Shown here: piece by piece, positions 30,656 to 44,432 of the stretch | Position numbering within the stretch: position 1 is the first letter of the stretch | How the letters are laid out: the number at the start of each line of letters is the position of its first letter | NCBI RefSeq assembly: GCF_018101125.2 | Contig: NZ_JAELVF020000001.1 | Span: 124,001 to 188,000, forward strand | Direction of reading: 5' to 3' | Length of the DNA: 64,000 bases | From: Streptomyces tardus | GTDB lineage: Bacteria > Actinomycetota > Actinomycetes > Streptomycetales > Streptomycetaceae | Notes under the pieces: model-generated | Database searches by the model: none | What the model saw: only the letters and a program-made list of their open reading frames with translations | Told to the model about the DNA's origin: nothing | Translations under genes and position numbers: made by a program

Positions 30656-32173
30656 TCAGTCCTGCTGCTCCAGCCGCGCCAGGGCGGCATCGATCCGGAC
30701 CAGCGAAGGCTCACGGCCGAGCACTTCGAGTGATTCGAAGAGCGGCAGCCCCACCGTGCGACCGGTGACGGCGACCCGAACCGGTGCCTGGGCCTTGCCC
30801 AGCTTCATCCCGTGCTGCTCGCCGGCCGCCAGCACCGCGTCCTTCAACGACTCGGCGTCCCAAGCGGCTTCGGCGAGGCCTGCACGGGCGGTCCGCAGCA
30901 GGTCCGCGGCGCCCGGCTTCATCGCCTTCTTCCAGGATGCCTCGTCCGACACCGGCTCCTCGAGAAAGAGGAAGTCGACGTTCTGGGTGATGTCCGAAAG
31001 CACCGTGAGACGAGTCTGGGCGAGCGGAGCGAGCTCGACGAACGCCGACTCGTCGAACGACTCCGGCTTCCACGGGGCGTGCGGAGCGCGCAGCCAGGGT
31101 CGGCACGCCTCGACGAAGTCCTCAACGGACAGCTCACGCAGGTGCGTTGCGTTGATCGCCTCGCACTTCTTGAGGTCGAACCGGGCCGGGTTCGCGTTCA
31201 CCGCGGTGATCTCGAAGGCCGAGACCATCTCGTCCATCGTGAAGATGTCCCGGTCCTCGGCGAGCGACCAGCCGAGCAGCGAGAGGTAGTTGAGCAGGCC
31301 GGCAGGCAGGAAGCCCCGCTCCCGGTAGAGATTGAGCGAGGCCTGCGGGTCGCGCTTCGAGAGCTTCTTGTTGCCCTCCCCCATCACATACGGCAGGTGC
31401 CCGAAGAGCGGGGTGCTGCCGTTGCCGACGCCCAGCTCGGCGAGCGCCCGGTAGAGCGCGATCTGCCGGGGCGTGGAGGAGAGCAGATCCTCGCCGCGCA
31501 GGACGTGGGTGATCTCCATCAGCGCGTCGTCGACCGGATTGACCAGCGTGTACAACGGAGCGCCGTTTGCTCGCACGATCCCGAAGTCCGGGACGTTCTC
31601 CGGACTGAAGGTCAGCTCGCCGCGCACCAGGTCCTGGAAGGTGATCGACTCGTCCGGCATCCGGAAGCGGACGATCGCGGTGCGTCCCTCGGCCTCGTAC
31701 GCGGCCCGCTGCTCGGCGCTGAGGTCGCGGCACTTGCCGTCGTACCCGGAGGGCTTGCCGGCGGCGCGGGCTGCCTCTCGACGGGCCTCCAGCTCCTCCC
31801 CGGTGCAGTAGCAGCGGTAGGCGTGCCCGGCTTCCTGAAGGCGCTCGGCGACGTCGCGGTAGAGGTCCATGCGCTCGGACTGCCGGTACGGCGCGTGCGG
31901 GCCGCCGACCTCTGGGCCCTCGTCCCAGTCGAGGCCGAGCCAGCGCAGCGAGTCCAACAGCTGCTCGTAGGACTCCTCGGAGTCGCGCGAGGCGTCGGTG
32001 TCCTCGATGCGGAAGACGAGGGTGCCGCCGTGGTGCCGAGCGAACGCCCAGTTGAACAGGGCGGTGCGGATCAGCCCGACGTGCGGGTTGCCGGTCGGGG
32101 AGGGACAGAATCGCACGCGTACCGCGGATGCCGAATTCTGGTCCGTGGACGGTGAGTTGGGTGCGCTAGCCAC
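30656..32173 (-). CDS. gltX: Glutamyl-tRNA synthetase
   Basis: Charges tRNA-Glu. In actinobacteria that lack GlnRS it usually also charges tRNA-Gln for later amidation by GatCAB. Class I signatures: [20 protein letters not shown] (HIGH region) and [11 protein letters not shown] (KMSKS equivalent). 505 aa. The GTG at 32173 ([11 protein letters not shown] after it) overlaps the end of the upstream FAH-family gene by 8 nt, so the two are coupled. The tRNA-Gln and tRNA-Glu genes lie just downstream. Confidence 0.97.
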
Positions 32174-32948
32174 GCTTGACAACCTTGTTGGTGAGAGTGC
32201 CGATACCTTCGATGGTGACAGCGACCTCGTCACCCACATTCACCGGTCCGACGCCCGCCGGGGTGCCGGTGAGGACGACGTCCCCGGGCAGCAGCGTCAT
32301 CGCCTCGGTGATGTGCACGATCAGGTCCTCCACGGACCTGATCATCTCGCTGGTGCGCCCGAGCTGTCGCTGCTCGCCGTTGACGGTGCACATCACGGCC
32401 AGATCGCTCGGGTCCACCTCCGTCTCGACCCAGGGGCCGAGAGGGCAGGACCCGTCGAAACCCTTGGCGCGAGCCCACTGCGCCTCGCTGCGCTGGATGT
32501 CGCGCGCGGTGAGGTCGTTGGCGCAGGTGTAGCCGAGAACCACCTCGTGAACGCGCTCCCTGGGCACCTGGCTGCACATTCGGCCGATCACCACCGCCAG
32601 CTCGGCCTCGTGGTGCACCTCCGAGGAGAAGGCGGGGTAACCGACCGGGTCGCCCGGGCCTGCGACGGAGGTGGAGGGCTTGAAGAACGCCACCGGAGTG
32701 TCGGGCACCTCCTGGCCCAACTCCCGTGCGTGCTCGGCGTAGTTGCGCCCGATGGCCACCACCTTGCTCGGCAGCGTCGGGGAGAGCAGCCGCACCTTGT
32801 CCAGTGGGATCTTCTGGCCCGAGCGTTCGAACTCGGCGAAAGGATGGCCCTTGATGATGTCGAGGACGGGGCCGCCCTCGGTGTTGGCATCTCCCTCCAG
32901 GACGCCGAAACCGACGGTTCCGTCCAGGGAGAATCTGGCGATGCGCAC
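32166..32948 (-). CDS. Fumarylacetoacetate-hydrolase-family protein
   Basis: 260 aa, FAH C-terminal fold (acylpyruvate hydrolase / oxaloacetate decarboxylase type). It starts [36 protein letters not shown] and [15 protein letters not shown] provide the metal-binding acidic residues, and [13 protein letters not shown] follows. GTG start at 32948. The substrate is not determinable. It overlaps gltX by 8 nt and starts just beyond the cvn1 terminator. Confidence 0.9.
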
Positions 32949-33017
32949 GGCTTGCCTGCCCCTAACTGAGGTGCTGCACACAGCACTGACCGCTGAAAAC
33001 TGACACTCCAGCGTATC

Positions 33018-33065
33018 GGGCCCGCAGGGCACCGGGACTCAAGTGTTCCGGCACCCTGCGGGCCC
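33018..33065 (-). terminator. Terminator of the first conservon
   Basis: GGGCCCGCAGGG / CCCTGCGGGCCC stem with a small CA/CA internal mismatch, then a CCGG/CCGG stem and a 12-nt loop, 36 nt past the cvnD1 stop. Confidence 0.75.
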
Positions 33066-33100
33066 AAGGGTTCTGCGGCCGGCCTGCGAGGCCGGTGGCG

Positions 33101-33679
33101 TCAGCGCAGCCGCGCCATCAGCGCGTGCTCGACGAGCGTGATCAGACCGCTCTTGGCGTCCGCGCGGTGGCGGGCGTCGGTGGTGATGATCGGGGTGTCG
33201 GGTCCGATCTGCAGGGCCTCGCGAACCTCGTCCGGGCTGTACGGCTGGTGGCCGTCGAAGCCGTTGAGGGCGATCACGAACGGCAGCCCACTGTTCTCGA
33301 AGTAATCCACCGCCGGGAAACAGTCCGCCAACCGACGCGTGTCCACCAACACCACCGCACCGATCGCACCACGCACCAAGTCGTCCCACATGAACCAGAA
33401 ACGATCCTGACCCGGCGTACCGAACAAATACAGAATCAGGTCCTGGTCGAGGGTGATCCGACCGAAGTCCATCGCCACCGTCGTCGTGGTCTTGTCCCCG
33501 GTGTGGGTCAGATCGTCGATGCCCGCCGACGCCGACGTCATCACCGCCTCGGTACGCAACGGATTGATCTCCGACACGGCGCCCACGAAGGTCGTCTTGC
33601 CCACGCCGAACCCACCCGCCACCACGATCTTCGCGGAGGTGGTGGAGCGGGCCGCACCGCTAGAGCTTCCGAAGTCCAC
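33101..33679 (-). CDS. cvnD: Conservon small GTPase CvnD, copy 1
   Basis: 192-aa Ras/MglA-like GTP-binding protein of a conservon. G1 is VVAGGFGVGKTTFVGAV, G3 is FGTPGQDRFWFMWDDL, and the G4 position reads ALNGFDGH instead of canonical NKxD. The GTG at 33679 lies within the 3' end of cvnC, a 20-nt overlap. It differs from copy 2 at only 8 residues, mostly near the C-terminus. Conservons form membrane-associated heterocomplexes resembling eukaryotic G-protein-coupled signalling. Confidence 0.95.
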   Translation of the reverse strand: MDFGSSSGAARSTTSAKIVVAGGFGVGKTTFVGAVSEINPLRTEAVMTSASAGIDDLTHTGDKTTTTVAMDFGRITLDQDLILYLFGTPGQDRFWFMWDDLVRGAIGAVVLVDTRRLADCFPAVDYFENSGLPFVIALNGFDGHQPYSPDEVREALQIGPDTPIITTDARHRADAKSGLITLVEHALMARLR

Positions 33680-34280
33680 TGAGCACCCTTTCGAGCAGTG
33701 TCACGTCTGGCTGTCCACCGGCGGACTCGTCGCCGCCGGGCTGATGGATGGCGACTAGCCCGGCCTCGGCGAGGTCGGCGACGAGGATCCGGGCTACGCC
33801 GAGGGGAATGGAGAGGAGTGCCGAGATCTCGGCGACCGATTTGATCTCGTAGCACAGGCGGCAGATGCGCTGGTGCTCAGGGAGCTGGCCCTGGAGCTGC
33901 ATCGCGTCCGCCGTGGTGTGCACCAGCGCCTCGATGGCGAGCTGGTAGCGCGGCCGGGTGCGGCCACCGGTCATCGCGTACGGACGCACCAGCGGCGACT
34001 GCCCGCCGCTGCTGCCGCCGCTCTGCGCCGGTCGACTGCCCTGGCCGTTCTGGCTGTTCTGATTGTTCTGGCCGTTCTGGCCGAGCCGGCCATCCTGGCC
34101 CGCTGGCTCACCGGAACCGCCCTGGTACGACTGCCGGCCCCGCGGCGGCTCCTGTCGCTGCCTGGGCGGCGGTGTGGCCTGCTGGTGGCTCGGCGTCGAG
34201 GGGAAGTTGAAGCGCTGGTACTGCGGGTCACTCTGCGGCTGCTGTGCGCTGCCGAACGGACCGCCTGGGGGCGTTGTCAC
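33660..34280 (-). CDS. cvnC: Conservon DUF742 protein CvnC, copy 1
   Basis: 206 aa. The C-terminal DUF742 domain (from about residue 95) reads VRPYAMTGGRTRPRYQLAIE, then PEHQRICRLCYEIKSVAEIS and GVARILVADLAEAG, a winged-helix-like fold. The N-terminal part is a Gln/Asn/Gly/Pro-rich tail with NGQNNQNSQNGQ repeats, much longer than in copy 2. The GTG at 34280 has GGAGGAGAC directly upstream. It overlaps cvnD by 20 nt. Confidence 0.93.
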   Translation of the reverse strand: MTTPPGGPFGSAQQPQSDPQYQRFNFPSTPSHQQATPPPRQRQEPPRGRQSYQGGSGEPAGQDGRLGQNGQNNQNSQNGQGSRPAQSGGSSGGQSPLVRPYAMTGGRTRPRYQLAIEALVHTTADAMQLQGQLPEHQRICRLCYEIKSVAEISALLSIPLGVARILVADLAEAGLVAIHQPGGDESAGGQPDVTLLERVLSGLRKL

Positions 34281-34393
34281 GTCTCCTCCTCCGACTGCCG
34301 ATGAACGGGAGCGTCCCCCGTGAGGCGCTCCCAAGTGCCGTTCGCGTGACCGCACTTTAAGGTGCGAGGACGCAAGAAGCACTGGGTTGGTTG

Positions 34394-34807
34394 CTAGTTG
34401 AGAAGGCTTCCTTGCAGTTCCGAGCGGAGTTCCGGGGTCAGAACAGTGCCCGCCCGATCCACCAACAGCGCCATCTCATAACCGACAAGACCGATATCAG
34501 CCTCCGGATGAGCGAGAACAGCCAACGACGAACCATCCGAAACCGCCATAATGAAGAGGAAACCACGCTCCATCTCCACCACGGTCTGGTTCACCGCCCC
34601 ACCCTCGAAAATCCGCGAAGCCCCCTGCGTCAACGACGTCAGACCCGAAGCAACCGCCGCCAACTGATCGGCACGATCCCTCGGAAAACCCTCCGACATC
34701 GCCAGAAGAAGACCGTCGGCGGAAACCACCACCGTGTGCGACACCCCAGGGGTGTTCTCCACAAAATTGGTGATCAACCAGTTCAGGTTCTGCGCTGCCT
34801 GGCTCAT
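34394..34807 (-). CDS. cvnB: Conservon roadblock/LC7 protein CvnB, copy 1
   Basis: 137 aa, roadblock/LC7 fold. MSQAAQNLNWLITNFVENTPG starts the protein, then SHTVVVSADGLLLAMSEGF. Roadblock proteins act with small GTPases, here CvnD. The amino acid sequence is identical to copy 2. Start: ATG at 34807; a GTG 9 nt upstream lies directly after the cvnA stop, so translation is probably coupled. Its codons use far more T-ending third positions than its neighbours. Confidence 0.94.
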   Translation of the reverse strand: MSQAAQNLNWLITNFVENTPGVSHTVVVSADGLLLAMSEGFPRDRADQLAAVASGLTSLTQGASRIFEGGAVNQTVVEMERGFLFIMAVSDGSSLAVLAHPEADIGLVGYEMALLVDRAGTVLTPELRSELQGSLLN

Positions 34808-34817
34808 CGGGCTCACA

Positions 34818-37800
34818 CTAACGCTCCTGATCGTAGGTGCTGCCGGTGCTGGATCCCGGCTGGTCGGTCTGGCTTGCTCCCTGGCTGCCGGCCCGTCCCT
34901 GACGGACACCGCGGTGCAGGTTGCTGAGCCTGCCCCGGACGTCCTCGGGGGAACGGGACACCTGGGGGCCTCCCTGCAGGGTCTGCTCCGCGGTGCCCTC
35001 GACCAGATTGGCTCTGGGTACCCGGCGCGGCAGACCCGAGATGGTGACGCCCCCGGCCTTGGGGTGACGGACGCTTTCCGCCCGCTCCCAACGCTCGTCG
35101 TTCGTCGAGCGCCATTCGCCTTCGTCGGAACCGGACTCCCGCGGTGGCTCCGGGGCCGACTCCGGCTGGACCTGCGGTGCCTCGGGCTCTTCGAGGGACT
35201 CTTCGCCACTCTCCCGACGCGGCAGACCCGCGTTCGTCAAAGAGGGTGAAGTGTCCGACGAAGATCCCGGACGATCAAAGCCTACGCGCTCCCGACCGTC
35301 AGCGGGAGCGCCGGGGCCAGGTTCGCGCGCGGACCCGTCGGCGGCACCTGCTCCGCCAGACTGTACCCCGCCTTCGGGGACTCCTTGCGCAGCCCAACTT
35401 CCCGCACTCCAGGGGGCGTTGAGGCCCTCGCCCTGACGTGTGGAGCCACTGAGAAGGCCGGATCCGGCACGGAAGGCGGGGCTGCCCTGACCGAAGGCGT
35501 CGAAGGACTCTCCGGTGACCGGCCCGCCCGGCCTCTGACCCAGGGTTCGGCCGGGAACCCGGGTGTGCAGCCCGCGGGCCGTCAGCGGATCGGAGTCGTA
35601 ATGCCGCCCCTCCGGGCCCTGACCACCGTCCTGCCCCTGATCGAACCCCAGGCCCTGATCGAACCCCAGACCCTGGTGGGCGCCCTGCGAGCCGCCGCGG
35701 TCGCCGCTTCCGGGGCCGTGCGGCAGCCCGTCGCCGGAAGGCGGCGGAGGGAGCCCCCCACCGTGCTGCTGATCGCCGTACCCCTGGCCGTGCGCGTAGG
35801 TCTGGTCCGGCCCCTGCGGAGAGGTCTGGTCCGGCCCCTGCGCGTACGTCTGGTCCGGCTCGTACGCGTACGTCTGGTCCGGCTCGTACGGGGCGTACCC
35901 CCGGCCCTGCTCGTCCGGCGCGTACCCGCCGGGGTACGACTGCTCCGACGCGTACGGGCCGCTCTGCGCTCCGGCTCCGTACGACTCGCTGCCGAAGGCG
36001 TCCGACTGCCCGAAGGCTGCGAACGTCTCGCCCCGGCCGCCGCCGTCGCCCCCGGCCGGGGGCGAGCCCCGCCGCTGGGGCGGCGCGAAGGCGTCGTAGT
36101 GGTCCGGGTCGTCCTCGAGGCCGTCGCCGTACCCGCCGGGATCCGGGCCGTCGCCGCCGAGGACGCCCGCCCCGAAGGGGTCTCCCGCGCCGGGATCCAG
36201 TGCGGCCCTGCCGCCGTTCGCGAAGGGCGCCGCGGGTCCCCCCGCCTCCAGCGAAGCGGTATCGCCCGGCGCCTGCCCCCCGGCGACGTGCGGGCCTCCG
36301 ATCTGCGGGGGCGAACCGGCCGGGGACGACTGATCGGGAACGATGCGGGAGACGCTGAAGCCCTCCTCCACGTACCCCTGGCCGCCTCCACCGTGGGTGA
36401 TCGCCTCGGGCAGCATGACCAGCGACGTGGTGCCCGCCTGCTCACCGGAGGGCCGCAGCTGGACGCGGATGCTGTGGCGGTCGGCGAGCCGGCCGACCAC
36501 ATAGAGGCCCATCCGCTGCGAGATCGCCGCGTCCACCTTGGGCGGATCGGCCAGCTTGTGGTTGATGTCCGCGAAATCCTTGGCGGTGAGACCGATGCCC
36601 TTGTCGTGGATCTCGATCATCACCCGGCCGTCGGGAAGCCTCGTCGCCGTGACCCTGACCTTCGTCTGCGGCGAGGAGAAGGAGGTGGCGTTCTCCAGCA
36701 GCTCGGCGAGCAGGTGCACGAGGTCGGTGACGACCTGGCCGTGGATGTCGCTCTCCGGGACACCGGTGATCTCGATGCGCTCGTACGCCTCCACCTCCGA
36801 GGAGGCGGCGCGCATGACGTCCACCAGCGGTACCGGCTCGTTCCAGCGGCGCACCGAGTCCTCTCCGGCGAGGACCAGCAGATTCTCGCCGTTGCGGCGC
36901 ATACGGGTCGCCAGGTGGTCCAGCTTGAAGAGGTTCTCCAACTGGTCCGGGTCGGCCTCGTTGTTCTCCAGATCGGTGATCAGGCCGAGTTGGCGCTCGA
37001 TCAGGCCCTGATTGCGACTGGAGAGGTTGGTGAAGATCGCGTTGACGTTCCCGCGCAGCAGGGCCTGCTCGGCGGCCAGCCGCACAGCCTCACGGTGGAC
37101 CTGGTCGAAGGCGCGGGCGACTTCGCCGATCTCGTCCCGGCTGTCGATCGGGATCCGGCGCACATCGGTGTCGACCTTGCCCGGGTCCGTGCGCGAAAGC
37201 TGCTCGACCAGCGACGGCAGCCGCTGCTCGGCGACGTCGAAGGCGGCGTTGCGCAGGCGGTTCATGTTGCGGCTCATCGCACGGGCCATGAAACCGGCGA
37301 CCAGGAAGGCGATCAGCAGCGCGGCGAGCACGATGGCTCCGTTGATGATCGCCTCACGCTTGGCGTCTGCGGCGATGTCGCCGGCCTCGCTGACCGCCCG
37401 GTCGGCGAGATCGCGCTCGACGGTGCGGTACACGTCGAACTTGGCGGTGGCTGCGGTGTACCAGACCTCGGAGGTGACGCCGTCCTTGGCGAGCGCGGAG
37501 GGCGAGGCGCCGGTGGCGATGAGGTCGGTCATGGCCTGCATGCCGGGCGGCGCCACGACGTCCTCGTCCGCCTCCTCCGCCTTCGCCTTCTCCTCCTCGG
37601 CCTTCTTCTGCAGCCCTTCGAGGTCGGCGCGCAGTCGGGCGTTGTCCTCCTCGGTACCGGCGGCGAACGCCTCGGTGAGCGCGATGTTCTCCAGGTACGC
37701 GTACGAGCCGAAGGCGGTGACCTGCTCCTTCTTCGCCTCTTCGCCCGGCCCCGGCTTCACCAGCAGATGGGTGCCGATGGAGCGGGTGAGCGACTCCGCG

Positions 37801-38459
37801 GCCTTGGCGAGGGAGACGGCGTAGACGGTGCGGCCGTAGGAGGTGATGTTGCCGGAGTCGAGGCTGAGTTCGTTGGCGAGGTTCATCAGCGGGTGCTGCA
37901 CCTCGACGTAGCCCAGCTGCGTCTTCACACCACTCAGGGCCTTGGTGTAGGCGCCCTGCCTGAGCTCGTCGAGCTTGGGCTCCGCCTCGGCCACGCCGTC
38001 GAGCCGGTGCTGGAGGCTCGCGGTCTTCGGCGCCCGATCGGCGGCGGCGTGGAAAGCGTCGGCGGCCTCGTCGGTCGCCTTGCGCGACTCAACGACCTCG
38101 GCGGCGTCCTGCTCACCCTTGAGCAGCGGAGCGACGGTGCGATCTCGCTCGTCGAGGAGGGCGTGGCCGTACGCGGTGGCGGCGCGCACGAGCTCGGCGG
38201 TCTTCTCGGCGTCCTCGGCGGCGTTCAGAGTCTGGACGGAGTTGCGGACAGTCAGCCCGCCGAAGATCAGCGCCACCAGGACGGGGATCAGCAGAATCGC
38301 GTTGAGTCTGGTCGCCACGCGCCAGTTGCGCAGCGCGAACCGGCTGCCGCTGCCCTCCTCCTGCGCACCCGGAGGCTCGGCTGACGTCGCCGAACCGCGC
38401 GGCGGCGTGAAATTTCCCCGCGACTCCGGCGGCGGAGATGCCGTCTTGCTTCGCCTCAC
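34818..38459 (-). CDS. cvnA: Conservon sensor histidine-kinase-like protein CvnA, copy 1
   Basis: 1,213 aa. Transmembrane helices lie near residues 51-71 (LNAILLIPVLVALIFGG) and 370-391 (GAIVLAALLIAFLVAGF), with a large extracytoplasmic helical sensor (NIT-like) between them. HAMP-type linker RLPSLVEQLSR follows; FKLDHLATRMRRNGENLLVL and the ATP-binding region LLAELLENATSFSS, EIHDKGIGL and RMGLYVVGRLA come next. From about residue 690 the tail is Gly/Pro/Gln/Tyr-rich with PDQTYA and GLGFDQ repeats. The GTG at 38459 has GAGAGGG 9 nt upstream; a GTG at 38486 is possible. Signal unknown. Confidence 0.93.
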   Translation of the reverse strand: MRRSKTASPPPESRGNFTPPRGSATSAEPPGAQEEGSGSRFALRNWRVATRLNAILLIPVLVALIFGGLTVRNSVQTLNAAEDAEKTAELVRAATAYGHALLDERDRTVAPLLKGEQDAAEVVESRKATDEAADAFHAAADRAPKTASLQHRLDGVAEAEPKLDELRQGAYTKALSGVKTQLGYVEVQHPLMNLANELSLDSGNITSYGRTVYAVSLAKAAESLTRSIGTHLLVKPGPGEEAKKEQVTAFGSYAYLENIALTEAFAAGTEEDNARLRADLEGLQKKAEEEKAKAEEADEDVVAPPGMQAMTDLIATGASPSALAKDGVTSEVWYTAATAKFDVYRTVERDLADRAVSEAGDIAADAKREAIINGAIVLAALLIAFLVAGFMARAMSRNMNRLRNAAFDVAEQRLPSLVEQLSRTDPGKVDTDVRRIPIDSRDEIGEVARAFDQVHREAVRLAAEQALLRGNVNAIFTNLSSRNQGLIERQLGLITDLENNEADPDQLENLFKLDHLATRMRRNGENLLVLAGEDSVRRWNEPVPLVDVMRAASSEVEAYERIEITGVPESDIHGQVVTDLVHLLAELLENATSFSSPQTKVRVTATRLPDGRVMIEIHDKGIGLTAKDFADINHKLADPPKVDAAISQRMGLYVVGRLADRHSIRVQLRPSGEQAGTTSLVMLPEAITHGGGGQGYVEEGFSVSRIVPDQSSPAGSPPQIGGPHVAGGQAPGDTASLEAGGPAAPFANGGRAALDPGAGDPFGAGVLGGDGPDPGGYGDGLEDDPDHYDAFAPPQRRGSPPAGGDGGGRGETFAAFGQSDAFGSESYGAGAQSGPYASEQSYPGGYAPDEQGRGYAPYEPDQTYAYEPDQTYAQGPDQTSPQGPDQTYAHGQGYGDQQHGGGLPPPPSGDGLPHGPGSGDRGGSQGAHQGLGFDQGLGFDQGQDGGQGPEGRHYDSDPLTARGLHTRVPGRTLGQRPGGPVTGESFDAFGQGSPAFRAGSGLLSGSTRQGEGLNAPWSAGSWAAQGVPEGGVQSGGAGAADGSAREPGPGAPADGRERVGFDRPGSSSDTSPSLTNAGLPRRESGEESLEEPEAPQVQPESAPEPPRESGSDEGEWRSTNDERWERAESVRHPKAGGVTISGLPRRVPRANLVEGTAEQTLQGGPQVSRSPEDVRGRLSNLHRGVRQGRAGSQGASQTDQPGSSTGSTYDQER

Positions 38460-38716
38460 TCGACCAAACCCTCTCGGCGTCGGCACCGACTGCTTGTGGT
38501 GCCTTAACTACTGCTGAGTTCAGCGAATTCCAGCACGACCGACGGGCGCATTCCAAGCACTTGAAAGTGAGATGACCAGCACGTAGCGGAGAGACTCAAT
38601 AGGACATATCCCTTAATCTCCACCAAAGCGACCGAGCTTGGATGCAGAACGCAACGATTCACCCACTGTTCGTGTTCGGTGTGGGTGCTATCTCTGTCGA
38701 ACCGTTATGAACTCGC

Positions 38717-38753
38717 AGGACAGGGTGCATCGATCTGATGAACCCTGTCCTGT
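38717..38753 (-). terminator. Hairpin downstream of conservon 2
   Basis: 11-bp perfect stem (38717-38727 with 38743-38753) with a 15-nt loop, about 210 nt past the cvnD2 stop. It is a likely terminator for the second conservon, shielding the cvnA1 promoter. Confidence 0.5.
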
Positions 38754-38783
38754 GCTCCTGTGCTCCTGTGCTCCTGTGCTCCT
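38752..38783. repeat. Four tandem copies of the octamer TGTGCTCC
   Basis: Four exact contiguous units between the conservon 2 terminator hairpin and cvnD2. No coding role is seen. Confidence 0.85.
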
Positions 38784-38964
38784 GGCTCCCCGTGCTCTCC
38801 GCCCCCTGCGCGCCACGGTCTGCCGCCCGGCCCCCGCGGCTGATCGCTCGGGTGGGCACTTCGGCGGGGCCGACTGACGGGGCATCTGCGGGCAGGCAGC
38901 CGCACGGTTGCCGGTCTACGGCGCGCCCGCCCAAGCGGACGGGCCTGCCTCCGAGGCTGCGGGG

Positions 38965-39543
38965 TCAGCGCAGCCGGGCCAGCAGCGCGTGCTCCACCAG
39001 CTGGATCAGTGCGGTCTTGGCGTCCGCGCGGTGGCGGGCGTCGGTGACGATGATCGGAGCGTCGGGTCCGATCTGCAGGGCCTCGCGGACCTCGTCCGGG
39101 CTGTACGGCTGGTGGCCGTCGAAGCCGTTGAGGGCGATCACGAACGGCAGCCCACTGTTCTCGAAGTAATCCACCGCCGGGAAACAGTCCGCCAACCGAC
39201 GCGTGTCCACCAACACCACCGCACCGATCGCACCACGCACCAAGTCGTCCCACATGAACCAGAAACGATCCTGACCCGGCGTACCGAACAAATACAGAAT
39301 CAGGTCGTCGTCGAGGGTGATCCGACCGAAGTCCATCGCCACCGTCGTCGTGGTCTTGCCGCCGGTGTGGGTCAGATCGTCGATGCCCGCCGACGCCGAC
39401 GTCATCACCGCCTCGGTACGCAACGGATTGATCTCCGACACGGCGCCCACGAAGGTCGTCTTGCCCACGCCGAACCCACCCGCCACCACGATCTTCGCGG
39501 AGGTGGTGGAGCGGGCCGCACCGCTAGAGCTTCCGAAGTCCAC
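38965..39543 (-). CDS. cvnD: Conservon small GTPase CvnD, copy 2
   Basis: 192 aa, near-identical to copy 1: same G1 (GGFGVGKTTF), G3 (TPGQDRFWFMW) and the odd NGFD at G4. From 39100 to 39570 the DNA is almost the same as in copy 1 including synonymous sites; the C-terminal 40 codons are more diverged. The GTG at 39543 overlaps cvnC2 by 20 nt. Confidence 0.95.
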   Translation of the reverse strand: MDFGSSSGAARSTTSAKIVVAGGFGVGKTTFVGAVSEINPLRTEAVMTSASAGIDDLTHTGGKTTTTVAMDFGRITLDDDLILYLFGTPGQDRFWFMWDDLVRGAIGAVVLVDTRRLADCFPAVDYFENSGLPFVIALNGFDGHQPYSPDEVREALQIGPDAPIIVTDARHRADAKTALIQLVEHALLARLR

Positions 39544-39937
39544 TGAGCACCCTTTCAAGCAGAGTCACGTCCGGTGCGCCGCCCGGCTCACTGCCGCCGC
39601 CCGGCTGGTGGATGGCCACCATCCCGGCCTCGGCAAGGTCGGCGACAAGGATTCGGGCAACGCCCAGAGGTATGGCCAGCAGCGCGGACACCTCGGCGAC
39701 CGACTTCACCTCGTTGCAGAGGTGGCAGATGCGCTGGTGCTCGGGCAACAGGCCGGGCAGCTGGGTCGGGTCGGCACTGGTACTGACGAGCGCTTCGATC
39801 GCGAGCTGATAGCGCGGCCGGGTGCGGCCGCCCGTCATCGCGTACGGGCGCACCAGCGGCTGGTCGCCCTCGCCTTCGTACGGCGCGCTGTGATCAGCGG
39901 CTCCGTACGATCCGGGCGAGGGGGGCGGGGTGGTCAT
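39524..39937 (-). CDS. cvnC: Conservon DUF742 protein CvnC, copy 2
   Basis: 137 aa. It has a short N-terminal tail MTTPPPSPGSYGAADHSAPY and the same DUF742 core as copy 1 (VRPYAMTGGRTRPRYQLAIE; PEHQRICHLCNEVKSVAEVS; GVARILVADLAEAG). It lacks the long Asn/Gln tail of copy 1. Start ATG at 39937. It overlaps cvnD by 20 nt and lies 73 nt after cvnB. Confidence 0.93.
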   Translation of the reverse strand: MTTPPPSPGSYGAADHSAPYEGEGDQPLVRPYAMTGGRTRPRYQLAIEALVSTSADPTQLPGLLPEHQRICHLCNEVKSVAEVSALLAIPLGVARILVADLAEAGMVAIHQPGGGSEPGGAPDVTLLERVLSGLRKL

Positions 39938-40010
39938 GGCTCCTCCGGCGAAGCAGAAGGTCGACGAGACGGATGGGACGTGCTCGAGCTCAAGTACGGG
40001 GAGCTTGCGG

Positions 40011-40424
40011 TCAGTTGAGGAGGCTTCCTTGCAGTTCCGAGCGGAGTTCCGGGGTCAGAACAGTGCCCGCCCGATCCACCAACAGCGCCATCTCGTAACC
40101 GACAAGACCGATATCAGCCTCCGGATGAGCGAGAACAGCCAACGACGAACCATCCGAAACCGCCATAATGAAGAGGAAACCACGCTCCATCTCCACCACG
40201 GTCTGGTTCACCGCCCCACCCTCGAAAATCCGCGAAGCCCCCTGCGTCAACGACGTCAGACCCGAAGCAACCGCCGCCAACTGATCGGCACGATCCCTCG
40301 GAAAACCCTCCGACATCGCCAGAAGAAGACCGTCGGCGGAAACCACCACCGTGTGCGACACCCCAGGGGTGTTCTCCACAAAATTGGTGATCAACCAGTT
40401 CAGATTCTGCGCCGCCTGGCTCAT
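40011..40424 (-). CDS. cvnB: Conservon roadblock/LC7 protein CvnB, copy 2
   Basis: 137 aa, amino acid sequence identical to copy 1. Only a handful of silent differences separate the two genes over 414 nt. Roadblock fold, presumed regulator of CvnD. The ATG at 40424 follows the cvnA2 stop (40434) by 9 nt. It shares the T-rich third-codon bias of copy 1. Confidence 0.94.
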   Translation of the reverse strand: MSQAAQNLNWLITNFVENTPGVSHTVVVSADGLLLAMSEGFPRDRADQLAAVASGLTSLTQGASRIFEGGAVNQTVVEMERGFLFIMAVSDGSSLAVLAHPEADIGLVGYEMALLVDRAGTVLTPELRSELQGSLLN

Positions 40425-40433
40425 CGGACTCAA

Positions 40434-43400
40434 CTAACGCTCCTGCTGGTAGGTGGGGCGGTTGCCCCGGTCGTTGCTGCCGGGGGCCCCGCCGGCCTGA
40501 CGGCCCTGCGCGATCCCCCGACGGAGGTTGGTGAGGCGACCGCGCACCGCGTCGGGCGCGCGGGAAACCTGCGGCCCCGACACCTGCACGGACTGCTGCT
40601 GCGCGGCCCCCTCCACCAGGTTTGCCTTGGGAACCCGCCGAGGCAGGCCCGAGGTCGTGACGCCGCCGGCGGCGGGTGTACGCAGTCGTTCGGCTCTGCG
40701 CCACAGCTCGTCGTTGGCCGAGCCGTTGCCGACGGAGGCCTGGGGCTGCTGCCCGGTCTCCTCCGGCCCCGCCTGCCGCTGGGGTGCGATCGGTGAGGCC
40801 GCTCCGGACGGGCGCGTCTGCTGCGGGCCCGGCTCCGACGGGGCGGGCTCGACCGACTGCGGGTCGCGGCTGAACCAGTTCGTCTCCATCTGCTCGAAGA
40901 TGGGCGTACGGGTCTCCGCGGTGGCGGTCGCCGGAATCGGGATGTCCAGCTCGGTGGTGTCGTCGTGCACCGGCTGAGGCGCGTACCCGTGCGGCGAAAG
41001 CGGGTCCTGGCGCGCGTAGGAGTCGGGCTGCGGCGGCCCTGCCGGAGCACCGCCGTTGGTCCCGGGGCGACCGAAACCACCGTCGAACACCGACTCCTCG
41101 TGGCCGCGCGGCCGGTCGTCCGCGGCCCGTACCCGCTGCTGCTCGGCGGTGGCCTCACCACTGGCCCAGCTGGGGCGCTGGGCGCCACCGGCAGCTTCGT
41201 CGGAATGCTGCGGCTGAGCAGGACGGGCGTTCTGGGCGCGCTGGGGCAGCTGCGGGCGGCCCTGCGACGGCGCGGGAAGACCGGGACGCTCACCCGCTCC
41301 GGGCAGCGGAGCGGACTCCGCGTTCCGCGCGGTCTCCTGCCTCTGACTCTCGTCCGCCCCGCCGCGCTGCGGCAGCCTGGCCGGCAGCTCGCCTGCCGGC
41401 CCGCCGCGGGCGGGCAGCCGCGGCCTGTCCACGCCCTGGTCGGCCCTGGGCATCGCGGGCGCGGGGCCCGGGGCCGCGGGAGACGGCGTGGCGGGCGCCG
41501 GAGTGTTGCCGGCCGGACGGCCGCCGAACAGCGGCGCCGCCTGGCTCCCGCCGCCCTGACGCTGCGGCCCGCCGGGCCCGCCCGGGCCACCGGGACCACC
41601 ACCGAGCCGTCCCGCACCGGGCAGCGCGGGGCGCGCTCCGCCACCGCCGACCTGGCCGCGTGTGGGCAGTGCGCCGAGCCGGCTGGTGCCGGGGGTGCCG
41701 CCCTGTGGCTTCTGGAGCCGGGGCGCAGGCGCGCCGGCACCGCCGGGCCCGCCCTTGTCCCTGGCCACCTGGCCGCTCTGGGTGACGTCGACGGGCAGCA
41801 TGACCAGCGCCGTCGTACCACCGGAGTCCGAGGGACGGAGCTGGATGCGGATGCCGTGCCGCAGCGAGAGCCGGCCGACCACGAACAGGCCCATGCGACG
41901 AGAGACCGAAACATCCACGGTGGGCGGGCTGTTGAGCCGCTCGTTGATCGCGGAGAGGTCCTCGGGAGAGAGGCCGATGCCGGTGTCGTGGATCTCCACC
42001 AGCACCCGCCCGTCGGGCAGCGCGTGCCCGGTGACCTTCACCTTGGTCTGTGGCGAGGAGAACGAGGTGGCGTTCTCCAGCAGCTCGGCGAGCAGGTGCA
42101 CGAGGTCGTTGACCACGCGCCCGGCGACCTCGATGGTCGGCACCCCGCTCAACTCGATGCGCTCGTACTGCTCCACCTCGGATGCTGCGGCGCGCAGCAC
42201 GTCGACCAGCGGTACGGGACGGGTCCAGCGGCGCCCGGGCTCCTCGCCGGCGAGGACCAGCAGGTTCTCGCCGTTCCGGCGCATACGGGTCGCCAGGTGG
42301 TCCAGCTTGAACAGCGAGGCCAGCTGGTCGGGGTCGGCCTCGCGGGACTCGAGCTCGGAGATCAGCGAGAGCTGGCGCTGGATGAGCCCCTGGCTGCGGC
42401 GCGAGAGGTTGGTGAACATCGCGTTGACGTTGCCCCTCAGCAGGGCCTGCTCACCGGCGAGGCGCACGGCCTCGCGATGCACGTCGTCGAAGGCCGCGGC
42501 GACCCGGCCGATCTCGTCCCTGCTGTGCACGCCGACGGACTCGACGGTGGTGTCGACCTCCTGCGGGTCCGACTCCGAGAGCTGCTTGACCAGCTCGGGC
42601 AGCCGCCTGCGCGAGACCTCCTGCGCGGTGTCCTGGAGACGGCGCAACGATTTGACCATCGCGCGGGCCACCACGAAGGCGCCGATGAGCGAGATACCGA
42701 GGACCAGGACGATGAAGGCAATGTTGAGAATGACTTCCCGCTCCGCCTCCTTGCCCAGCTGACGGGCCTGCTGCTCCATCTCCGTCAGGAGAGTGGTCTC
42801 GATCTTCTCCATCTCGTCGATCTTCGTCCGGTCCTGGTCGTACCAGTCCATGTACGAGCGCTGGTCGGCCCTGATGCCGTCGGCGCTCTTGAAGACCCGG
42901 CTGGCGTACGCGTCCGCGGAGACGATATTGACGATTCCGCCGGTCAGAGACTTGATGAGCTGCTCCGCGCCGTCACCGTAGATCACCGTGAACCGCGCCA
43001 GAGCGGCGTCCTCGTTGTCCTTGGCGGTGCCGCCGAAACGGCGGTCGTTCTCCGAGAGCTTCGCACCGTCGGGGTTGGCCAGTCCGGCGCTGATGATCGC
43101 GCGCTGGATGGAGGCGTACTCCTTGGAAGTGGAGAACGCGGCCAGCGCCCGGGTGCTGTTGATCATGTCGGGGTTGCTGGTGGCCTGCGCCATGTCCTGC
43201 GAGAGCGTGAGCAGGGACTCGATGATGCGGTTGTAGTCGCTGACGGTCTCGGCGATCGCGTCGTCGTTCTCGTAGGAGCGGTCCCGGATGTCCTTCAGCA
43301 GGCCCAGCTGGCTGCCGATGCTCACGACCGTGGCCCGGACGCCGGCGAGCTCCTCGCTGTCGCCCGAGAACTCCTTGCTCTTCTCGTCGAAGGCCTTCTT

Positions 43401-43892
43401 CGCCTGGTCGCTGCGCTCCCTGGGGGCGGCGACCGCGTCGTCCTTGGCGTTGCCGTGCGCCGTCATCGGGCCCGCGGAGCGGTCGCGCTCCTCCTGGAGG
43501 GCGGCGGCCAGCGCGGTGGCCTGCTGCGTCATCTCCGTCAGCAGCTGCATGTTCTTGAGCTGCGCGGCCTCTTCGTTGGCGTCGACGACCCGGAAGGCAC
43601 CGAGGGCGGTCGCTGCGACGACCGGCAGTGTGAGGAGGGAGACGAGCCGGGTACTGATCCGCCAATTGCGCAGCAGAAGCCGGGAGCCCGCGCTGGGCTC
43701 CGCCTCGGCCGTGGCGCCGTCCTGGGGTTCCTCCTCGGCAGCGGCGCTCTCCGCGCCCGCACCGTCGAGGTTCCGCACGAGCGGTGACTGGTCGTCGTCC
43801 TGCGCACGCTGTGGAGCAGAGCCGCGGTCGTTGGACCCGCGCAGCTCCGAAGCCGCTGCAGCCTTGCTGTCCCTTTTGAAACGTCCCTGCAC
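40434..43892 (-). CDS. cvnA: Conservon sensor histidine-kinase-like protein CvnA, copy 2
   Basis: 1,152 aa from the GTG at 43892 (VQGRFKRDSKAAAAS; an open frame runs upstream to 44333 but is unlikely). TM1 RLVSLLTLPVVAATALGAF and TM2 LNIAFIVLVLGISLIGAFVVA flank a helical sensor domain different from copy 1. HAMP-like region, LFKLDHLATRMRRNGENLLV, LLAELLENATSFSS, EIHDTGIGLS and RMGLFVVGRLS follow as in copy 1. The C-terminal about 500 residues are Pro/Gly/Gln-rich. The kinase core is conserved between copies, while sensor and tail are not. Confidence 0.93.
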   Translation of the reverse strand: MQGRFKRDSKAAAASELRGSNDRGSAPQRAQDDDQSPLVRNLDGAGAESAAAEEEPQDGATAEAEPSAGSRLLLRNWRISTRLVSLLTLPVVAATALGAFRVVDANEEAAQLKNMQLLTEMTQQATALAAALQEERDRSAGPMTAHGNAKDDAVAAPRERSDQAKKAFDEKSKEFSGDSEELAGVRATVVSIGSQLGLLKDIRDRSYENDDAIAETVSDYNRIIESLLTLSQDMAQATSNPDMINSTRALAAFSTSKEYASIQRAIISAGLANPDGAKLSENDRRFGGTAKDNEDAALARFTVIYGDGAEQLIKSLTGGIVNIVSADAYASRVFKSADGIRADQRSYMDWYDQDRTKIDEMEKIETTLLTEMEQQARQLGKEAEREVILNIAFIVLVLGISLIGAFVVARAMVKSLRRLQDTAQEVSRRRLPELVKQLSESDPQEVDTTVESVGVHSRDEIGRVAAAFDDVHREAVRLAGEQALLRGNVNAMFTNLSRRSQGLIQRQLSLISELESREADPDQLASLFKLDHLATRMRRNGENLLVLAGEEPGRRWTRPVPLVDVLRAAASEVEQYERIELSGVPTIEVAGRVVNDLVHLLAELLENATSFSSPQTKVKVTGHALPDGRVLVEIHDTGIGLSPEDLSAINERLNSPPTVDVSVSRRMGLFVVGRLSLRHGIRIQLRPSDSGGTTALVMLPVDVTQSGQVARDKGGPGGAGAPAPRLQKPQGGTPGTSRLGALPTRGQVGGGGARPALPGAGRLGGGPGGPGGPGGPQRQGGGSQAAPLFGGRPAGNTPAPATPSPAAPGPAPAMPRADQGVDRPRLPARGGPAGELPARLPQRGGADESQRQETARNAESAPLPGAGERPGLPAPSQGRPQLPQRAQNARPAQPQHSDEAAGGAQRPSWASGEATAEQQRVRAADDRPRGHEESVFDGGFGRPGTNGGAPAGPPQPDSYARQDPLSPHGYAPQPVHDDTTELDIPIPATATAETRTPIFEQMETNWFSRDPQSVEPAPSEPGPQQTRPSGAASPIAPQRQAGPEETGQQPQASVGNGSANDELWRRAERLRTPAAGGVTTSGLPRRVPKANLVEGAAQQQSVQVSGPQVSRAPDAVRGRLTNLRRGIAQGRQAGGAPGSNDRGNRPTYQQER

Positions 43893-44432
43893 TAGCGTCG
43901 CAACCTCTGGACCGGGCGTCCCGCCGGAGTGCGGCAGGACGGTGTTGAGCCGGAAGCTTTCACAGGGCCTTCCGGCGGTCGTGAGTGACCTACGTGCTTC
44001 CCCAGGGCCGCCGCGCGGCGCTGCTCTGCGCCCCGTGCGCGCCGACTGATGTCCCACGGCGGTCCGTGGAATTCCAGCACAGTGCCGGATGTCCAACAAG
44101 GGCCGGGAATCGACCTGTGACATAGGTGACCCTGCGAGGTCACAGCGTGACATTAAGTCAATAGGAACCAGGAGCAATTCGGGCGTTTGCGACCGACCAG
44201 ACGGCACGGCAAGCTGCCCCGGCAGCGACACCGCTCGGCGTTCTGCGCGCATTGATATGGGGATGTCGCTTTGACCTCGCCGGGATACCGTCCGAAATGA
44301 CGTGAATGCCCGTGTGCAGGTGAGGAAGCTCACAGACGGGGATTCGTCCGCGCCGCCCGGCGAGCGGGAAAGCGGGCATATTCTCGAGATTTACAGCTCG
44401 CCCAGCATAGACAAGCGAAGGCATAACTCCCA
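43893..44432. other. Control region between cvnA2 and the 60-aa gene (540 bp)
   Basis: No gene I accept. An AT-richer part (44100-44180) carries repeated TGTGAC/GTGAC elements, a perfect inverted repeat and the TCAATAGGA motif (44158-44166) shared with conservon 1. TAGACA at 44408-44413 may be the -10 of the 60-aa gene. Confidence 0.5.
44126..44143. promoter_or_regulatory. Inverted repeat GTGACC-6-GGTCAC upstream of conservon 2
   Basis: Perfect 6-bp arms with a 6-bp spacer. A TGTGAC (44116-44121) and a GTGAC (44147-44151) copy lie close on either side. It is a candidate operator about 235 nt before cvnA2. Confidence 0.4.

Follow-up and report, generated by a model that had tools for sequence, protein, structure and literature searches.

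The window, a stretch of 64,000 nt from a host genome of 6.16 Mb, carries two full conservons arranged head to tail on the minus strand (33101-44333). Both units follow the gene order cvnA, cvnB, cvnC and cvnD, and all eight products contain the expected Pfam domains in order (NIT/HAMP/HATPase_c, Roadblock/LC7, DUF742 and ATP_bind_1), which agrees with the tandem same-strand arrangement recognised in the initial annotation. The corresponding proteins have been described as a sensor (CvnA), a roadblock regulator that is a GAP in mycobacteria (CvnB), a likely GEF (CvnC) and a GTPase (CvnD) (PMC8510531, PMC13343842). Unit 1 begins with cvnA1 (40434..44333), encoding a sensor kinase-like protein with NIT, HAMP and HATPase_c domains and given here as the longest open frame from a putative start; this frame reaches 44333 and not 43892, where the gene had been taken to begin. 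It is followed by cvnB1 (40011..40433; Robl_LC7), encoding a roadblock/LC7 protein, cvnC1 (39524..39937), encoding a DUF742 protein, and cvnD1 (38965..39543; PF03029), encoding a small Ras-like GTPase and overlapping the end of cvnC1 by 20 bases. Unit 2 consists of cvnA2 (34818..38486; sensor kinase-like, with NIT, HAMP and HATPase_c), cvnB2 (34394..34816; roadblock/LC7, Robl_LC7), cvnC2 (33660..34280), in which the DUF742 core is joined to a long Gln/Asn-rich N-terminal tail, and cvnD2 (33101..33679; small Ras-like GTPase, PF03029), all likewise on the minus strand.

Orthologues of the cvnA1 core occupy the same position in other genomes. The tandem conservons are followed in the same direction by genes that we take to be those named FAH and gltX. 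Comparison of eleven loci (L014, L032, L035, L049, L058, L059, L088, L134, L161, L165 and L166) revealed two arrangements, in which the pair is either co-directional with FAH-gltX, as in the window (30656-44333), or inverted relative to it, as in most sampled loci. A short tandem repeat (approximately AGCACAGG), spotted by eye, lies in the gap between the units at window positions 38745-38785.

Silent-site likeness of the two units and its timing

Four-fold silent identity between the window copies was 0.98 for cvnB and 0.95 for cvnD, against 0.64 for the cvnA core and 0.53 for cvnC, so that silent divergence of cvnB and cvnD was far below that of cvnA, the comparison on which the initial annotation had staked its account. 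The two cvnB genes differ at 6 of 420 bases, and a near-identical tract over cvnB1 (40020..40433, minus strand), delimited from the list of differing bases, contains one identical run of 308 bases; the CvnB proteins are identical, as had been stated, if the TTG and GTG starts are both read as Met, and otherwise differ at residue 1. For cvnD, 18 of 576 bases differ, giving the same 8 changes among 192 residues that were counted before. A second near-identical tract (39089..39556, minus strand) takes in the final bases of cvnC1 and cvnD1 up to roughly codon 152, and differs from unit 2 at only 4 of 468 bases, bearing out the earlier description of an almost base-for-base match; three of these differences alter codons 62 and 79, which thus lie as copy-specific codons inside the tract, and the remaining one, in codon 61, is silent. 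The reported divergence of CvnA was also recovered (111 of 320 core residues differ), while that of cvnC, formerly placed in the N-terminal tail, was found there and in the DUF742 core as well, with 32 residues differing over the aligned part.

As a control, the tandem pair was compared with six further conservon loci in this genome (L003-L008), which cover part of its roadblock matches. Three of the six matched the window cvnD at 67.6-70.0% DNA identity, and none of them matched cvnB at E 1e-5. Third-position GC of cvnB (40011-40433 and 34394-34816) was 0.70, the lowest of 126 loci, and that of the cvnA core in the same genome was 0.93.

Among the matches listed, the named loci closest to the window by CvnB were those of Streptomyces sp. 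XM4193 (99%) and S. alkaliterrae (98%). In a first sample of 71 genomes for cvnB and 67 for cvnD, from which XM4193 was absent, the best silent identity of another genome to the window was 0.67 (cvnB) and 0.64 (cvnD); over all genomes compared, XM4193 excepted, it was at most 0.67 and 0.68, and for S. alkaliterrae it was 0.52-0.54 and 0.65-0.68. Selection on the protein alone is therefore insufficient to account for the matching silent sites, as the initial annotation had argued. XM4193 is a very close relative, with silent identities to the window of 0.98-0.99 for cvnB and 0.88-0.92 for cvnD. The window's cvnD1 and cvnD2 are nevertheless closer to each other (0.95) than to their counterparts in XM4193 (0.90 for cvnD1, 0.92 for cvnD2), the two XM4193 copies likewise share 0.95 of silent sites with each other, and silent patterns of cvnD between the two strains were concerted at 12 sites and orthologous at 3. 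These results indicated that cvnD was homogenised after the window and XM4193 lineages split, and hence that its conversion is recent. All four cvnB copies of both strains are 0.98-0.99 alike, so no date can be given for cvnB. An own paralogue closer at silent sites than the orthologue, the pattern of concerted evolution, was thus found, and with respect to XM4193 it holds for cvnD and not for cvnB; the proposal of recent gene conversion is supported as conversion for both genes and as recent for cvnD.

Recurrence across Streptomyces and related genera

To place the window among its relatives, 80 stretches from other genomes and 80 named loci were combined with it into a set of 161 loci, in which a number of genomes occur in duplicate (G111 and L099 are one example), as the loci came from two collections. 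The first set comprised 81 loci (80 genomes), with both copies within the coverage limits for cvnB in 71, cvnD in 67 and cvnA in 69; in the larger set both copies were present for cvnB in 141, cvnD in 136, cvnC in 141 and cvnA in 133. A tandem cvnB pair was found at 141 of the 161 loci, the other 20 including cut contigs, the one-unit outgroup G150 and G012.

Within-genome silent identity had a median of 0.84 for cvnD (67 genomes), compared with 0.60 between copy 1 and copy 2 of different genomes; the corresponding medians were 0.63 and 0.53 for cvnB and 0.64 and 0.62 for cvnA. The own paralogue was closer than every orthologue of both copies in 31 of 67 genomes for cvnD, 15 of 71 for cvnB and 1 of 69 for cvnA, and within-genome identity lay above the cross-comparison 95th percentile for cvnB in 35 genomes out of 71 and for cvnA in 12 out of 69, indicating that clear homogenisation of cvnB is confined to part of the genus.

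Gene trees gave a similar ranking. By Fitch parsimony the copy label changed once for cvnA (133 loci), 3 times for cvnC (141), 22 times for cvnB (141) and 50 times for cvnD (136), numbers that are rough because trees of short genes are noisy, although cvnA and cvnC from the same loci show almost no mixing; well-supported (≥0.9) sister pairs of own copies numbered 0, 1, 13 and 28, respectively. The single A1/A2 label change in 133 loci places the duplication before the divergence of the species compared, at a locus whose gene order they share, and the many changes for cvnB and cvnD indicated that homogenisation recurred independently in many lineages. In a site-pattern test on 126 loci, of which 9 near-identical ones were collapsed to give 58 non-overlapping genome pairs, concerted silent sites outnumbered orthologous ones in 38 pairs for cvnD, 15 for cvnB, 5 for cvnC and 1 for cvnA. 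Summed over the pairs, concerted, orthologous and crossed silent sites were 954, 502 and 80 for cvnD, 344, 1024 and 71 for cvnB, 91, 1031 and 46 for cvnC, and 144, 1548 and 110 for cvnA. These counts indicate widespread conversion of cvnD, and conversion of cvnB in the smaller share of pairs.

Donor direction at silent sites leaned towards cvnD copy 2 over copy 1 (964 versus 789), but the mostly unconverted cvnC leaned the same way (655 versus 446), and cvnA was even (1131 each way). GC-biased conversion was considered and is not invoked: homogenisation showed no consistent relation to GC3 over 126 loci (rho 0.19, p 0.03 for cvnB; rho -0.11, p 0.22 for cvnD), and GC3 of cvnB and cvnD is lower than that of the cvnA core.

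The comparison was extended to 20 further loci, 15 of them from other genera of the family. In 5 of these 15 (G440, G522, G426, G438 and G540), cvnB and cvnD both had a silent identity of at least 0.9 while that of cvnA was 0.74-0.78; other-genus loci showing no homogenisation include G498 (cvnB 0.69, cvnD 0.57), G435 (0.65, 0.61) and G427 (0.66, 0.63). Within-genome similarity of the kind proposed as a check is therefore present in many related genomes, and the pattern, once presented as distinct, is instead recurrent across the genus and parts of the family. Its restriction to cvnB and cvnD holds in the main, with the exception of a few genomes in which cvnC is homogenised too (G426, silent identity 0.93, and the locus L088).

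Copy-specific residues in CvnD

Conversion describes the silent sites of cvnD well, but the initial account had missed that certain amino-acid sites behave unlike neighbouring silent sites. When cvnD of the window was compared with that of S. alkaliterrae, silent sites were concerted at 39 positions and orthologous at 1, while replacement sites were concerted at 0 and orthologous at 8 (nominal Fisher p 2.4e-8, a value that linked sites make too strong). The orthologous replacement sites fall in codons 62, 79, 162, 177, 181 and 188, so that replacement differences are retained amid homogenised silent sites, as would be expected of selection against conversion. The same contrast appeared in independent pairs, with 671 concerted and 259 orthologous silent sites against 39 and 105 replacement sites over codons 19-144, and 112 and 59 against 22 and 60 over codons 55-81, where 9 pairs were for the contrast and 3 against. 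Part of this contrast is homoplasy, since the unconverted cvnA, used as a control, shows a weaker one (concerted fraction 0.09 at silent and 0.01 at replacement sites, silent being higher in 45 pairs and lower in 3).

Codon 79 is the clearest case: copy 2 encodes Gln in all 136 loci, and copy 1 encodes Asp or Glu in 30 of them. In these 30 loci silent identity dips over codons 55-81 (0.41, 0.64 and 0.71 per 9 codons, compared with 0.83, 0.74 and 0.88 in the remaining 106) and rises again to either side. Codon 62 lies directly before the invariant KTTTT, and codon 79 between KTTTT and GTPGQ (columns invariant in 30 sequences), a region that we take to be switch I and the hairpin after it. CvnD varies more in copy 1 than it does in copy 2 (mean divergence 0.054 versus 0.033). 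An AlphaFold model of CvnD (30 rows) had a mean pLDDT of 46.8 and was too poor for use, and a PDB search with CvnD returned one weak match, yeast Ypt7; with CvnB it matched four roadblock entries, including cvnB5 (3leq), with 9hef the best.

These observations suggest that selection against conversion probably maintains the copy-specific state of a few cvnD residues. The competing reading accepts conversion and holds that the residues survive by chance, through patchy tracts or a local block by mismatches; we regard it as somewhat less than an even prospect, yet one to be taken seriously. Heterology lowers recombination, homogenisation is generally weaker towards the ends of cvnD, and the replacement sites of codons 19-54, 6 orthologous and 4 concerted, are not numerous enough to decide. 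The two copies of XM4193 agree at codons 62 and 79, so any protection there is not absolute. Against survival by chance, the window tract around codons 62 and 79 differs at only 4 of 468 bases, not enough to prevent pairing, the concerted silent sites at codons 57, 66, 74 and 82 interleave with the two retained codons, and the Gln of copy 2 at codon 79 is kept throughout the sampled loci. Homogenised silent sites set against retained residues in this way point to candidate specificity sites in CvnD.

Proposed recombination between units and relation to known systems

The window units are very probably tandem conservons of the cvn1/cvn2 type, in which recurrent recombination between the units homogenises cvnB and cvnD and likely joins two sensors to nearly one switch. 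The duplication is old: cvnA1 and cvnA2 separate into two clean lineages in the loci sampled. Homologous recombination between the adjoining units would then repeatedly have copied cvnB and cvnD sequence from one to the other, mostly by gene conversion and occasionally by unequal crossing-over. The two genes could convert because their strongly constrained proteins keep DNA identity high enough for pairing, whereas cvnA, and cvnC in nearly all loci, may have diverged past the point of pairing or been kept different by selection.

A probable product of crossing-over is seen in G487, where a single contig holds the three-unit array A1-B-C1-D, A2-B-C1-D, A2-B-C2-D. The middle unit shares its A core with unit 3 and its C with unit 1, both at 100% DNA identity and in stretches without N, and the three cvnB copies are 0.98-0.99 alike at silent sites. 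This hybrid unit, in which sensor A2 is linked to the C1-D pair, is what an unequal crossover inside cvnB would be expected to yield.

Another route to similar copies would be tandem duplication of entire conservons, recent or repeated and independent from lineage to lineage, and tandem arrays can duplicate afresh, as the real third unit of G487 attests. It is very improbable as the general explanation, because the cvnA and cvnC genes of these units are ancient and nearly cleanly orthologous (1 and 3 label changes), the A1/A2 tree contains no within-genome sister pair in 133 loci, cvnB and cvnD alone are alike in most loci, and a tandem cvnB pair is present at 141 of 161. An extremely slim chance attaches to the reading that silent sites are constrained, whether by codon usage, RNA structure or overlapping signals, and that this keeps the copies alike without recombination: the proteins are highly conserved and the codon use of the window's cvnB is unusual (the lowest GC3 noted above), but other genomes, XM4193 apart, match the window copies far less than these match each other, so neither codon bias nor silent constraint can explain the match, and orthologues from other genomes reach a median four-fold identity of only about 0.54-0.62, hence silent sites are free to change between species. 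It is no less far-fetched that short reads collapsed the copies and one sequence was placed at both sites; contigs do often end inside cvnD at this locus, and the scaffold of G075 carries runs of N at the repeats of both units, but high cvnD identity also occurs in the one-contig genomes G208 (0.99) and G249 (0.97) and the two-contig G010 (0.99), high identity is found in G522 (four contigs), G426 (one) and G506 (three), and the window copies differ at 8 CvnD residues and have distinct flanks.

Recombination between the units would likely leave two different sensors feeding a nearly common adaptor and GTPase, with the handful of probably protected CvnD residues keeping some private wiring. Two inputs on nearly one switch is the simplest reading of a locus in which B and D are nearly common and A and C differ, judged from sequence comparison. 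We take the pair to be the same locus as cvn1/cvn2 of S. coelicolor, beside gltX. By gene number the latter are adjacent (SCO5544 is cvnA1 and SCO5540 is cvnA2; PMC9739842), and they share the gene order A-B-C-D with the window, so conservons and the adjoining cvnA1/cvnA2 pair are already known; the available text describes no homogenisation of their cvnB or cvnD, and S. coelicolor by name lies outside the present sample. In S. coelicolor, separate effects on antibiotics and aerial growth are reported for CvnA1 (PMC9739842), which means that the two units are not fully redundant. In the open-licence PMC text available on conservons, no functional evidence of common cvn1-cvn2 signalling was found.

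CvnD and CvnB are described as homologues of MglA and MglB and of mycobacterial MfpB and MfpD, in which MfpD is reported to be a GAP and MfpC a likely GEF for MfpB (PMC13343842, PMC4316618), and products acting as one signalling complex are described for Cvn9, Cvn8 and the Mfp system (PMC8510531, PMC13343842). A bolder proposal, which we put forward tentatively and think rather unlikely in full, is that the pair forms one signalling node with two inputs: conversion would keep CvnB and CvnD interchangeable for a common GTPase pool, residues 62 and 79 and some near the C-terminus, kept different by selection, would set partner preference, and crossing-over in cvnB would rewire sensors to new C-D pairs, as in G487.

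Long-lasting concerted evolution has been described for 26 prokaryotic genes, including tuf, amo/hao and psbA (PMC6053082), which resemble the present case in being synteny-conserved paralogues that are more alike within a genome than are orthologues between species, over a broad group. Neither cvnB nor cvnD is present in the two tables of that source as available, and the conservons differ from its genes in that homogenisation mainly affects two genes of a four-gene operon, those for a GTPase and the roadblock protein that partners it, and in that some amino-acid sites escape. In the available text of PMC4316618, adjoining duplicated conservons appear only where one has lost mglA, and the terms "gene conversion" and "concerted" occur 0 times. 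Within the open-licence PMC literature, as represented by the accessible parts of PMC8510531, PMC13343842, PMC2374992, PMC3123327, PMC4316618, PMC9739842 and PMC6053082, we found no report of concerted evolution or conversion in conservons. Homogenisation of silent sites within cvnD while several amino acids stay copy-specific is new here, as probably is the incomplete homogenisation of two neighbouring operons, across a genus and in parts of the family, with residues that are probably protected: two signalling genes have repeatedly been homogenised while their sensors diverged.

Homogenised repeats of this kind appear to break short-read assemblies, and short-read assemblies and gene trees of cvnB and cvnD at the tandem locus should be treated as unreliable. 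Ten genomes that gave no good full match to cvnB or cvnD were examined with the cvnA1 core; all ten hold A1-like and A2-like cores, on separate contigs in eight, so the apparent absences were not counted as losses. In G075 a single contig carries both units, and runs of N, which need not be assembly gaps, cover the cvnB start and the cvnD middle; in G455 an extra cvnB adjoins runs of N and was left out of the analysis. Stretches starting within or very near cvnD at a contig end were seen at L064-L067, L096, L106, L136, L142, L144, L146 and L152. G042 (L192, 2510-11151) holds both units on one contig without N, with cvnD whole in both and each cvnB present as a half (residues 1-78 and 55-140), which is either a tangled assembly or a real change. 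In G012 (L054 and L055), a single case, the units lie about 4 Mb apart, unit 1 is broken after cvnB and the cvnB copies have a silent identity of 0.80; a cvnD left over next to unit 2 encodes a protein only about 74% identical to that of the window.
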